Shown here: positions 39,500-42,650 of the stretch, piece after piece
Numbering within the stretch: the stretch's first letter is position 1
Layout: every line of letters starts with the position of its first letter
NCBI GenBank assembly: GCA_030427505.1
Contig: JAUICH010000002.1
Location: forward strand, 1 to 64,000
From: Verrucomicrobiia bacterium
GTDB lineage: Bacteria > Verrucomicrobiota > Verrucomicrobiia > Verrucomicrobiales > DEV007
Length of the DNA: 64,000 nucleotides
Direction: 5' to 3'
Notes under the pieces: generated by a model
Told to the model about the DNA's origin: nothing
The model's database searches: none
Seen by the model: the letters and a program-made list of their open reading frames with translations, nothing else
Position numbers and translations under genes: made by a program

Positions 39500-40474
39500 A
39501 TGAAAACCCCTGACAGAATCACCCTTGTCCGCCACCTGGCCGCCGTGGCGCTCGGCTTGTTTTTCGCTGCCTCGGGCCAACCGGCCCGGGCGGAGAGTTT
39601 CGTGATCGACGAAACGGAGGAAGGCTACCGGGTTTCGGAAGGCGGGAAGCCGGTGTTCTTCTACCAGCTGGCGCCGAAGTCCCTGGAGGGAAAGTGGAAG
39701 CGGGCGAACTATCTGCACCCGCTCCATGACTTGGACGGCGCGGTACTGACAGAAGACTTTCCGGAAGATCACCGCCACCATCGCGGAATCTTCTGGGCCT
39801 GGCACCAACTGATCGTCGATGGTCAGGCAGCAGGCGATTCCTGGGTCTGTGAGAACTTTGACTGGCGCCTCCTGGAAAGGGAAACCAAGACAAACGGTGA
39901 TGGAACGGTGGAGTTAGAAACCCGGTGGCATTGGATCTCCCGTCCGGGGGCTGACGAATCCGCCGAAGCCGTGCCCCTGGTGGCCGAAGACACCCGCGTC
40001 ACGGTCCATCCGGCGACACCCCGCTACCGGGCCATCGATTTTCAGATCGCCTTGCGAGCCCTGCGCGAGAACGTGCGCCTGGGCGGCTCCGATGACGTGA
40101 AAGGCTATGGCGGCTTTTCCACGCGGGTCCGGTTGCCGGAAGACCTGGCCTTTACCGGGGCGGTGGGCGAGGTGAAACCGGACAAGACCGCGGTGGTTGG
40201 CGGGGCCTGGATGAACCTTACCGGTTCGCTGGCGGAAGGCGGAGCGCCCGGCGGATTTGCGATTCTGCAGCATCCCTCTCTGCCCGGCTATCCTCAGCCC
40301 TGGATGCTGCGGGAAAAGAAAAGCATGCAGAATCCCCAGTGGCCCGGCCGGGAGCCGGTCCTCCTGCCCACGGACGAAGCGTTCATCCTACGCTACCGGC
40401 TCATCCTTCACCGGGGAGACTTAACTTCCGTGGAGTTGGACGCTCTCCAGGCGGACTACGCGTCAGCGCCTTGA
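39500..40474 (+). CDS. Secreted PmoA-like (DUF6807) protein
   Basis: A 324-residue protein with a signal peptide that starts at the ATG at 39500 (residues 1-31, ending ARAESF). The family signature is HPLHDLDGAVLTEDFPEDHRHHRGIF, in which the DHRHHRG stretch near 91-97 holds probable metal- or substrate-binding histidines, and GYGGFSTRVRLP follows. The family was named from a methane-oxidation locus but is abundant in carbohydrate-degrading bacteria. Its fold resembles sugar mutarotases. No reaction is proven. It is probably co-transcribed with the preceding gene. Confidence 0.86.
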   Translation: MKTPDRITLVRHLAAVALGLFFAASGQPARAESFVIDETEEGYRVSEGGKPVFFYQLAPKSLEGKWKRANYLHPLHDLDGAVLTEDFPEDHRHHRGIFWAWHQLIVDGQAAGDSWVCENFDWRLLERETKTNGDGTVELETRWHWISRPGADESAEAVPLVAEDTRVTVHPATPRYRAIDFQIALRALRENVRLGGSDDVKGYGGFSTRVRLPEDLAFTGAVGEVKPDKTAVVGGAWMNLTGSLAEGGAPGGFAILQHPSLPGYPQPWMLREKKSMQNPQWPGREPVLLPTDEAFILRYRLILHRGDLTSVELDALQADYASAP

Positions 40475-40565
40475 ATTGGCGAAAAGGCGAACGGACGGCA
40501 AGCCGCCGGGGAGCAAAGTTCGCTTATCACTGGACAAGAGGGGGCATGTGTTGAGGTTTTCTGCC

Positions 40566-41030
40566 ATGCGGCAATTCGCGGCAAAATCCCTGATCTCATT
40601 GGTGCTTCCGTTGGTCGTTAAGTGGGCGCGGCGGCAGGAAGCGCGCATCCTGGCCGAGGGGCGGACCCTGACCGTTTCGGAGGCCGCCTTCGCATCCTGG
40701 CTGGGGGTCTCAAATCCGGGGGAAATTCGCGTGCTCGAAATCGAGCAGATCCCCATGCCGGGAAAGGGGCTGCGGTGGATTGCCCGGCTGACCGGCTATC
40801 CTCATCAGCCGCCGGCCGGCATGGCCCTGGGAAGGGGGGTCTTCGTGAAGCAAAAACTGGCGAAACACCGGGAACTCGTGGCGCATGAGCTCGTTCATGT
40901 GGCTCAGTATCAACGCCTCGGCGGACTGGAATCCTTCCTGAAATGCTACCTGATGGAGTGCCTCATGCAGGGCTACGAAGGGGCGCCTCTCGAAATTGAG
41001 GCTCAAGAAAAAGCACAGGTTTTTGGGTAA
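40566..41030 (+). CDS. HExxH-motif protein of a conserved hypothetical family
   Basis: The ATG at 40566 has a gagg motif about 10 bases upstream; the longer frame from a TTG at 40476 is less convincing. The 154-residue protein contains a zincin-like motif, AHELVHVAQYQ, followed by LGGLESFLKCYL and EGAPLEIEAQ, whose last Glu could be the third metal ligand. Similar short proteins with HELVHV-Q occur widely as unnamed families resembling DUF4157. A protease role is therefore suggested by the motif but not shown. An N-terminal hydrophobic segment (about 6-17) may tether it to the membrane. Confidence 0.7.
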   Translation: MRQFAAKSLISLVLPLVVKWARRQEARILAEGRTLTVSEAAFASWLGVSNPGEIRVLEIEQIPMPGKGLRWIARLTGYPHQPPAGMALGRGVFVKQKLAKHRELVAHELVHVAQYQRLGGLESFLKCYLMECLMQGYEGAPLEIEAQEKAQVFG

Positions 41031-41052
41031 TGTCATGAAACGATATCGTCAT

Positions 41053-41068
41053 TGGCACCGTTTTTGCA
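41053..41068 (+). promoter_or_regulatory. Sigma-54-type (-24/-12) promoter
   Basis: The sequence TGGCAC at 41053-41058 and TTGCA at 41064-41068 matches the RpoN consensus, with GG and GC exactly 10 bp apart. Transcription would start near 41079, about 11 nt before the small gene at 41090. A 10-bp palindrome, acgatatcgt, at 41040-41049 lies just upstream and could contribute to activator binding. No RpoN or activator gene is in this window. Confidence 0.6.
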
Positions 41069-41089
41069 TGATCGTAAAGTTACTGTGTT

Positions 41090-41308
41090 ATGACGATCAG
41101 CATCCAAATAGAAGACCGCTCAATTGTCGTGACCCCCGAACCGGGAGCGCACGCCGCGCTCACGCGTGACCAATTGGAGCAAGCCATCCAGGCGCTCAAC
41201 GTAACCCAAAACTACCTTCAACAAACTCTAACCGATGTCCACGCGCCGTCGCCGCATGCCGGTCCGCGCTGGAAATTCACGGAGGAAAGCATGGAACTGC
41301 TCGGATGA
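41090..41308 (+). CDS. Small hypothetical protein behind a sigma-54-type promoter
   Basis: A 72-residue cytoplasmic protein, MTISIQIEDRSIVVTPEPGA at its start, that continues with a predicted helix (RDQLEQAIQALNVTQNYLQQTL) and ends WKFTEESMELLG. I recognise no family. The RpoN-like promoter 22 bp upstream of the ATG is the best evidence that it is real and tightly regulated. There is no Shine-Dalgarno sequence in the short leader. The following 300 bp show no convincing gene. Confidence 0.55.
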   Translation: MTISIQIEDRSIVVTPEPGAHAALTRDQLEQAIQALNVTQNYLQQTLTDVHAPSPHAGPRWKFTEESMELLG

Positions 41309-41606
41309 TCCCATCCGGCACGGAAACTGCACTTCACTCTCAACGATCTTTTGAACCAAAAGCGATGTTTTTCCGGGGGTCCGTCCCCGGTTTGCGGAGA
41401 CGGTCCTCCGGAAAGACGCTTCGCTGGGTTCGGATTAAGGGCTCTTTAGGCTCTTACCCGTGGCGCCGGAATAGGTGCCCTCGCCCGGTATCCGGTGATT
41501 GCTTTACCAAAAGGCGAGCCGACGGCTCGCGGGTGATTGGTTAGCCGGGGGTTTTCAACCTCTGGCGATTTCCAAAAACAGGCCTGCGCTGGAGGCGAGC
41601 GAATCT
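41309..41606. other. 298-bp gap with hairpins and a short direct repeat
   Basis: I see no gene here. A 7-bp stem (gcgagcc at 41514-41520 with ggctcgc at 41524-41530, loop gac) is flanked on both sides by ggtgattg, at about 41494-41501 and 41532-41539. That symmetric pattern resembles a small repeat element. An arginine-rich open frame from 41305 is not supported. Confidence 0.35.
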
Positions 41607-42383
41607 TCAGGCGGCGCTTTCAGGATCAACCTCCGGCTCAGGCGGGAGAGGAGCCGAGGTGGATTGGGAAACTGCCGCCCACTTCGTCCAGTGGCGGGGG
41701 AAGGCGAGGAACGCGATGGTGACCAACATGGCGAAGGCGAAGATGGCCCATCCAGGGTAGTTGACCCAGGGAGGCGTTTCCGAGTGGGGAAACTCTACTG
41801 GCAGGTCGATGAGGCCGTGGAGGACGGCTAGAAGCCACAGCGGAGTGCCGGCAAGCCGGGCGAGTCCGAACCCGAAACCGATAGGCAGCGCGAGGGTCGT
41901 TATCGATACGCCGTGGTTCACGTGACACGCGCCGAATAGGAGGGACGTGACGAGCAGTGCGACGGCTGGGCTCCATTGCTTACAGAGACTGAAGAGGTAG
42001 CCCCGAAAGATGAGTTCTTCGCCCAGCCCAATGAGCAGGCAGAAGAGGATGCCCAGGAGAACCTGTGAGCCGTTGTTAAGAGTGTGGGGTGGGCCCAGAG
42101 GGATGGGAACGATCGGGTTGGCGGCCCAGTTGAGGACGAGAAAGAGCCAGGGCAAGATCCACAGAAGGATGCGGGGAAGGGGGATGGGTATGCGGACTCG
42201 GGTGATTTCTCTGTCTTTCCAGTAGAGCCATCCATACAGGATCACTCCCGGCATTGTCGCGATGGACTGAGCGAGGAGTGGGGTGTCCCTGAAGTGTTGC
42301 GCGACGCCGAATCCGGCCAGCAAGTATGCCAGGAGACCCCCGACAATGGCGAGAATGCGGCCGAGATGGGTTTTGGGGGGCAT
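41607..42383 (-). CDS. CPBP family intramembrane glutamic endopeptidase
   Basis: A 258-residue protein with about seven hydrophobic segments. The start at 42383 (MPPKTHLGRI) is chosen because the upstream open frame is Arg/Pro-rich. The CPBP signature is present: EELIFR (122-127, motif 1), ACHVNHG with His154 (motif 2) and LHGLIDLP near 197 (motif 3). Family members are Rce1-like proteases or bacteriocin-immunity proteins that cut inside membranes. It is divergent from the pyruvyltransferase-like gene. The substrate is unknown. Confidence 0.86.
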   Translation of the reverse strand: MPPKTHLGRILAIVGGLLAYLLAGFGVAQHFRDTPLLAQSIATMPGVILYGWLYWKDREITRVRIPIPLPRILLWILPWLFLVLNWAANPIVPIPLGPPHTLNNGSQVLLGILFCLLIGLGEELIFRGYLFSLCKQWSPAVALLVTSLLFGACHVNHGVSITTLALPIGFGFGLARLAGTPLWLLAVLHGLIDLPVEFPHSETPPWVNYPGWAIFAFAMLVTIAFLAFPRHWTKWAAVSQSTSAPLPPEPEVDPESAA

Positions 42384-42650
42384 GTCAGGGTGGGAGTTCC
42401 AGAGCCACGGCGCCTTCGCCGGGGTCCGCGGTGTCGAGTGTCGAGAGTCCGGCGGAATCGGATAAAGGACGAATTCGCCGATGGGTCTTGAGTAAAGATT
42501 ACCGTGCCTGGGCGCGAGGATAAACGATAGCCGGTTGGGAATTTGCTTTCTTGGTAGGTTTTCGATCCTGCCGGTGCTTCCGCGCGAAACCGTCGCGTGA
42601 GGCGCAAATCGGGTTTTCAACCGGACGGTTTGTCGTAGATTGGCCGTCCC

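Follow-up and report, generated by a model that had tools for sequence, protein, structure and literature searches.

A candidate sigma-54 site before a 72-residue protein gene of Verrucomicrobiia differs at one telling base from functional-looking sites elsewhere in its family

Introduction

Sigma-54 (RpoN) promoters are recognised by their paired -24 and -12 elements, for which the consensus quoted in PMC4371752 is TGGCACRNNNNTTGCW, with a purine directly after TGGCAC. As described in PMC3844500, many sigma-54 activators bind some 70-150 bp upstream, and other arrangements are also known. Sigma-54 sites are furthermore found inside genes of E. coli, and the authors of that survey allow that some of these are non-functional (PMC4591121).

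The DNA considered here, referred to throughout as the window, is a stretch of 64,000 nt from the genome of a Verrucomicrobiia bacterium (GenBank assembly GCA_030427505.1, contig JAUICH010000002.1, positions 1 to 64,000). An earlier note, made from the sequence alone, described a textbook sigma-54 promoter in front of an orphan gene of 72 codons within it. This site shares with RpoN promoters the TGGCAC and TTGC core, the 5-base spacer, the A after TTGC and the presence of the sigma-54 machinery in the genome. It differs from them in having C instead of a purine after TGGCAC, in the 11-nt leader that it would produce, and in its degeneration in both orthologues; no upstream activator site was recognised. 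The word textbook is too strong for a site in which the purine is replaced and which is not kept in orthologues. We regard the match as a candidate sigma-54 site which differs at one telling base from the functional-looking sites of the family.

Results

The core TGGCAC-CGTTT-TTGC occupies positions 41053-41067 of the + strand, within TTGGCACCGTTTTTGCA (41052-41068). TGGCAC lies at 41053-41058 and is followed, after a five-base spacer, by TTGC at 41064-41067 and directly by A; this is the spacing that RpoN requires, as the earlier note maintained, and it predicts a transcription start at 41079. The ATG of the 72-codon reading frame stands at 41090, 22 further bases past TTGC. The exact core TGGCAC-N5-TTGC occurs once in the 64,000-nt window, and permitting one mismatch gave five matches against 4.8 expected.

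Candidate sites were scored against a matrix compiled from 71 intergenic sites with published binding, of which E. coli contributed 42 (PMC4591121) and Salmonella 29 (PMC3844500). On this matrix the window site reaches 18.3 bits, 5 bits ahead of its closest competitor in the window at 13.1; 42 of the 71 published sites score equal to or below it. This score is the strongest evidence for the sigma-54 reading put forward in the earlier note. About eight sites scoring like it are expected per genome-sized simulation (both strands, at the dinucleotide frequencies of the window), and its T-rich spacer is probably over-credited, because the sites in the matrix come from AT-richer genomes.

Across the 6.41-Mb genome the strict core was found 11 times, and its reversed control also 11 times. 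Six of the 11 strict core sites are intergenic against one of the 11 controls (one-sided Fisher p = 0.03), the gene calls being those of a simple codon-usage scheme with its own cut-off of 12 and not of a trained gene finder. On these figures the strict core goes beyond chance by position and not by number.

For five of the six intergenic core sites, a gene is called on the same strand at a distance of 15-224 nt downstream. The remaining one is the window site itself, whose 72-residue gene goes uncalled (8.1 against the cut-off of 12). Pfam names four of the five downstream genes, as P-II (glnK), type III glutamine synthetase, Gcw_chp (just over the cut-off) and a phosphotransferase-like gene, and gives the fifth a match below cut-off only. 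The glnK locus (L004, 1501-1515 and 1658 onward) has a site of 22.9 bits, above all 71 published ones, and glnK is divergent from the gene for an NtrC-like activator. The core before the phosphotransferase-like gene, which has C after TGGCAC, lies 25 nt upstream of it.

The sigma-54 machinery is encoded elsewhere in the genome. An rpoN gene is present (PF04552, 207.6 bits against a cut-off of 22.8), and the activator family PF00158 has 12 matches, seven of them above 140 bits and five weak at 22-33 bits; the weak matches mean little, because the family also matches control genomes without sigma-54. Thus rpoN and, in the seven strong matches, enhancer-binding activators were found where the earlier note had proposed looking for them, and the genome probably uses sigma-54. 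The lack of an rpoN gene, which the note gave as a refutation of its reading, does not apply. On the contig, the closest of the strong activator matches is some 81 kb from the site; a weak match (32.7 bits) lies at about 65 kb.

Four relatives from one genus yielded 45 core matches against 35 for the reversed control. A locus was at hand for 30 of the 45: 18 sites lie inside called genes and eight within 300 nt upstream of one, and five of these eight precede genes for an NtrC-like activator, glutamine synthetase, P-II, an ammonium transporter and dnaK. The sites before nitrogen genes in the window's genome and in these relatives (glnK, glutamine synthetase, ammonium transporter, NtrC-like activator) resemble the window site in core and spacing, but all six carry TGGCACG where the window site has TGGCACC.

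Sites of this kind were also seen beside other genes of the family. TGGCACG-N4-TTGC stands 55-156 nt before dnaK (HSP70) in three family genomes (L104, L173, L176), a sequence pattern that suggests a sigma-54 link to this chaperone gene in those genomes; dnaK is not among the seven genes named behind strict core sites in the genome of the window. The same motif lies 41 nt before a FlgE-like flagellar hook gene in family genome G046 (L212), and a sigma-54-like site lies 103 nt before a response-regulator/guanylate-cyclase gene in family genome G104 (L215).

The base directly after TGGCAC, which is C in the window site, is a purine in 65 of the 71 published bound sites, C in three and T in three; a purine is usual, not invariant. 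In a sample of 40 sites chosen regardless of this base (10 from the window's own genome, excluding the window site, and 30 of the 45 from the four relatives), 9 of 15 sites with G had a called gene on the same strand no more than 300 nt downstream, against 2 of 16 with C (two-sided p = 0.009); the sites so placed were 9 with G, 2 with C and 2 with T. When 74 family genomes were searched and the first 30 loci listed were taken for each of TGGCACG and TGGCACC, seven of the 30 G sites and none of the 30 C sites lay near upstream of a gene (p = 0.011). In this family-wide sample, intergenic sites without a near gene numbered 12 with C and 7 with G by one gene caller, and 9 and 6 by another.

A second sample, hand-picked because the spacers looked AT-rich, pointed the same way with less contrast (6/19 G vs 3/24 C). 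In two of its three C cases the site reads as the second arm of a stem-loop with a T run behind it, and in the family-wide sample these two had been classed as lacking a near gene; the third precedes a gene pair read as VapBC-like (putative). Counts alone do not separate C from G, because over all 74 genomes the totals stand in a like relation to their reversed controls (252 vs 144 for TGGCACC; 251 vs 150 for TGGCACG). A likelihood ratio of 0.07 was obtained for the window site, mostly owing to this base, from the variable positions of 17 sites, nine of which came from TGGCACG searches; allowing for that choice of sites, we infer a ratio near 0.2. The exact 15-mer of the window has four copies among the family matches listed, one inside a gene, two in terminator-like hairpins and one before a VapBC-like pair, and terminator-like stem-loops containing it are a source of false sigma-54 matches. 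In two related genomes (L182, L183) the 15-mer makes up the second arm of a terminator-like stem-loop, which is then followed by T.

Judged by its homologues, the 72-codon reading frame (41090-41308, + strand) is a real small gene and belongs to a small family of which three members were found. One homologue came from a search of 95 relatives (genome G035) and the third member was found behind homologues of the upstream gene (G029); these genomes correspond to HKST-UBA33 and HKST-UBA29, both Verrucomicrobiia MAGs. Each of the three proteins is 72 residues long, and that of the window is 29% and 26% identical to the others over its whole length, with R10, V13, V14, P18, A32, R60 and W61 among the residues invariant in all three. 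Since their first residues are held in common, the ATG at 41090 is supported as the start. We draw no conclusion from the lack of a Shine-Dalgarno sequence, because by a crude test only 2 of 33 window genes show one.

A profile of the three members matched in four of 74 family genomes, a set without other members of the window's own genus, and the fourth match (E 5e-4), inside a 997-codon frame, was taken as chance. Among the matches listed for samples of the class and phylum (384 and 387 genomes, with at most 15 candidates scored in each), the genome of the window alone matched; the two homologue-bearing genomes did not turn up in these samples. No relative was confirmed in an exact-peptide scan of genome contigs with the window protein, nor any in viral contigs with the family alignment. 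Library matches to the protein are far under cut-off (best E 0.056 in Pfam and 0.39 in NCBIfam), with a best E of 0.24 in PHROGs and none in PADLOC; a solved-structure match at E 0.47 was taken as chance. The structure models are weak (pLDDT 65 from the single sequence; pLDDT 68 and pTM 0.43 from three sequences), and both predict a beta-hairpin within residues 1-16 and a long, 25-residue helix at 26-50.

The earlier description of the gene as an orphan is mistaken. In three of three genomes it follows a homologue of the same HExxH zincin-like gene, with gaps of 59, 66 and 66 nt. In the window this neighbour is a 154-residue gene at 40566-41030 (+ strand), in a frame open from a TTG at 40476. 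It resembles the zincin-like domain eCIS_core (PF13699) in the HExxH motif and flanking residues but its score of 21.5 bits falls slightly short of the curated 22-bit cut-off. Of 44 aligned sequences, 43 have HExxH, that of the window among them, and the motif residues are evenly conserved. The zincin-like gene, found in 44 of 95 relatives, is much commoner than the 72-residue gene, which occurs at three of the 44 HExxH loci, one locus per genome, and the link between the two is therefore one-sided. A more fitting description of the small gene is that it neighbours a zinc-protease-like gene.

Conservation of the -24/-12 elements upstream of homologues, proposed in the earlier note as a check, failed in both cases. 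The orthologues carry CGGCAC-N5-ACGC and CGGCAC-N5-AGGC, whose scores of 6.0 and 4.5 bits are lower than that of any of the 71 known sites; three of the ten core bases differ in G029 and G035, where the first T is replaced by C and TT by AC or AG. GGCAC and GC stand at sigma-54 spacing in all three aligned intergenic stretches, and GGCAC-N7-GC arises in 0.4-0.7% of shuffles of these stretches, a figure that is not a clean test because the stretches are related by descent. In the relatives GC is 13 nt from the ATG, and the leader would be about 2 nt. Either a weak ancestral element has been sharpened in the lineage of the window, or the resemblance is one of descent combined with chance.

From the predicted start at 41079 to the ATG, the leader in the window would be 11 nt. 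In E. coli, glmY specifies a small RNA. The intergenic-sense table for that species in PMC4591121 has 18 nt (rutA) as the shortest leader of a protein gene, and 1 nt for glmY.

A sigma-70-like promoter, TTGGCA-N17-TAAAGT (41052-41080, + strand, 9 of 12 matches), overlaps the bases of the -24/-12 match. It is the one such site found in 40400-41650, against a mean of 0.4 in shuffles, and its hexamers are not kept in either orthologue. No terminator-like site was found in the 59-nt gap; two lie elsewhere in 40400-41650, where 1.9 are expected. Downstream of the small gene, a strong imperfect hairpin is predicted at 41352-41432 on the + strand (a 151-nt stretch folds at -66 kcal/mol, z = -4.8). 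Neither the window nor the loci compared from the same genome showed a second copy of it, and Rfam gave no match at E up to 1 on 40000-42600.

Directly upstream of the -24 element lies a perfect 10-bp palindrome, ACGATATCGT (41040-41049), present as a single copy in the window. The palindrome that, according to the earlier note, could bind an activator is real, but it is centred next to the -24 element, some 34 bp ahead of the predicted start, and not at the 70-150 bp or so upstream where many activators bind. An 8-bp inverted pair, ATCGTCAT (41045-41052) and ATGACGAT (41090-41097), flanks the promoter region and is possibly a repressor pair; the right arm is coding and includes the start codon of the 72-residue gene. 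NtrC-like dyads were sought upstream of 13 sites, with the NtrC-type consensus as generally known, and were not above shuffles at the window site, at glnK or at the other nitrogen sites. Since the nitrogen sites also do no better than shuffles, the search is uninformative.

Discussion

We put at about 0.5 the probability that the -24/-12 match is a chance or vestigial one and that the gene is expressed by read-through or from a sigma-70 promoter. The 72-residue gene would then be the second in a two-gene unit whose first gene encodes the HExxH zincin-like protein, with read-through across the 59-nt gap as its simplest route of expression. The sigma-70-type promoter in the gap would perhaps help, the TTGGCA of the -24/-12 match serving as its -35 hexamer, and the small protein may serve the zincin-like protein as accessory or regulator. 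The sequence features, the homologues found at the same place and the presence of rpoN and activators are shown here; co-transcription, sigma-70 use and the partnership of the two proteins are what we infer. In favour of the chance or vestigial match we counted the same neighbour in 3/3 genomes, a gap free of terminator-like sites and holding one sigma-70-like site, the C/G contrast (2/16 vs 9/15; 0/30 vs 7/30), the degenerate orthologous sites and the 11-nt leader. Against it stand the 42/71 known sites that score the same or lower and the 5 bits to the next site in the window, as well as a match that is rightly oriented, intergenic and just upstream of a gene. A pyrimidine is found in 6/71 known sites (three with C), and the genome has its own C site before the phosphotransferase-like gene. 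The sigma-70-like hexamers are unkept in orthologues, only 3/44 zincin-like loci hold the small gene, and the C/G contrast weakens in the hand-picked sample (3/24 vs 6/19).

To a working sigma-54 promoter, at which RpoN-RNA polymerase would wait at 41053-41067 until an activator switched on the gene from 41079, we give rather less than even odds. Its case is built on the exact core and spacing, the score of 18.3 bits, rpoN with seven strong activator matches, the intergenic placing of strict sites (6/11 vs 1/11), the same core before glnK (divergent from the NtrC-like activator gene) and glutamine synthetase III in the same genome, and the conservation of GG and GC, correctly spaced, in the two orthologues. 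However, C after TGGCAC goes with sites away from gene starts in the family, the leader would be 11 nt, and the orthologous sites are degenerate and would leave about 2 nt. Furthermore, the nearest strong activator match is about 81 kb off and the nearer one, at about 65 kb, is weak; no NtrC-like dyad rises above shuffles upstream, though the same is true of the glnK site. Our weighting of these two readings sets a strong core in the right place against an unusual base beside it, a leader that would be very short and a conservation check that failed. Sigma-54 might instead bind without productive transcription, either with no activator at work or with binding that blocks the overlapping sigma-70-like promoter. 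The overlap of the hexamers with the match would permit this, and the intragenic sites of E. coli, some perhaps non-functional according to PMC4591121, offer a precedent, but both factors would have to bind at the site, and we consider it improbable. Still further down the scale is the proposal that the reading frame is not a gene and that everything is chance. Its shortness, a coding score of 8.1 on a simple scheme with a gene cut-off of 12, and libraries without a match of note would all fit; it is largely refuted by the homologues in two other genomes, each exactly 72 codons long and found at the corresponding place.

It is possible that the 72-residue product is a tightly controlled response protein, as first supposed. 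A fuller picture, in which a sigma-54-switched small protein would regulate the neighbouring zincin-like protein in one corner of the Verrucomicrobia, with strong sigma-54 control only in the lineage of the window and an operator pair on either side of the promoter (41045-41052 and 41090-41097), strikes us as unlikely.

If the promoter works, a small protein of the three-member family would join a Verrucomicrobia sigma-54 regulon, which by the sites seen takes in nitrogen genes in the genome of the window and nitrogen, chaperone and flagellar genes in the family. If it does not, a perfect ten-base core would be insufficient in this genome, where its reversed control is equally frequent (11 and 11), and it is one neighbouring base that, in the samples taken, goes with a position before a gene.
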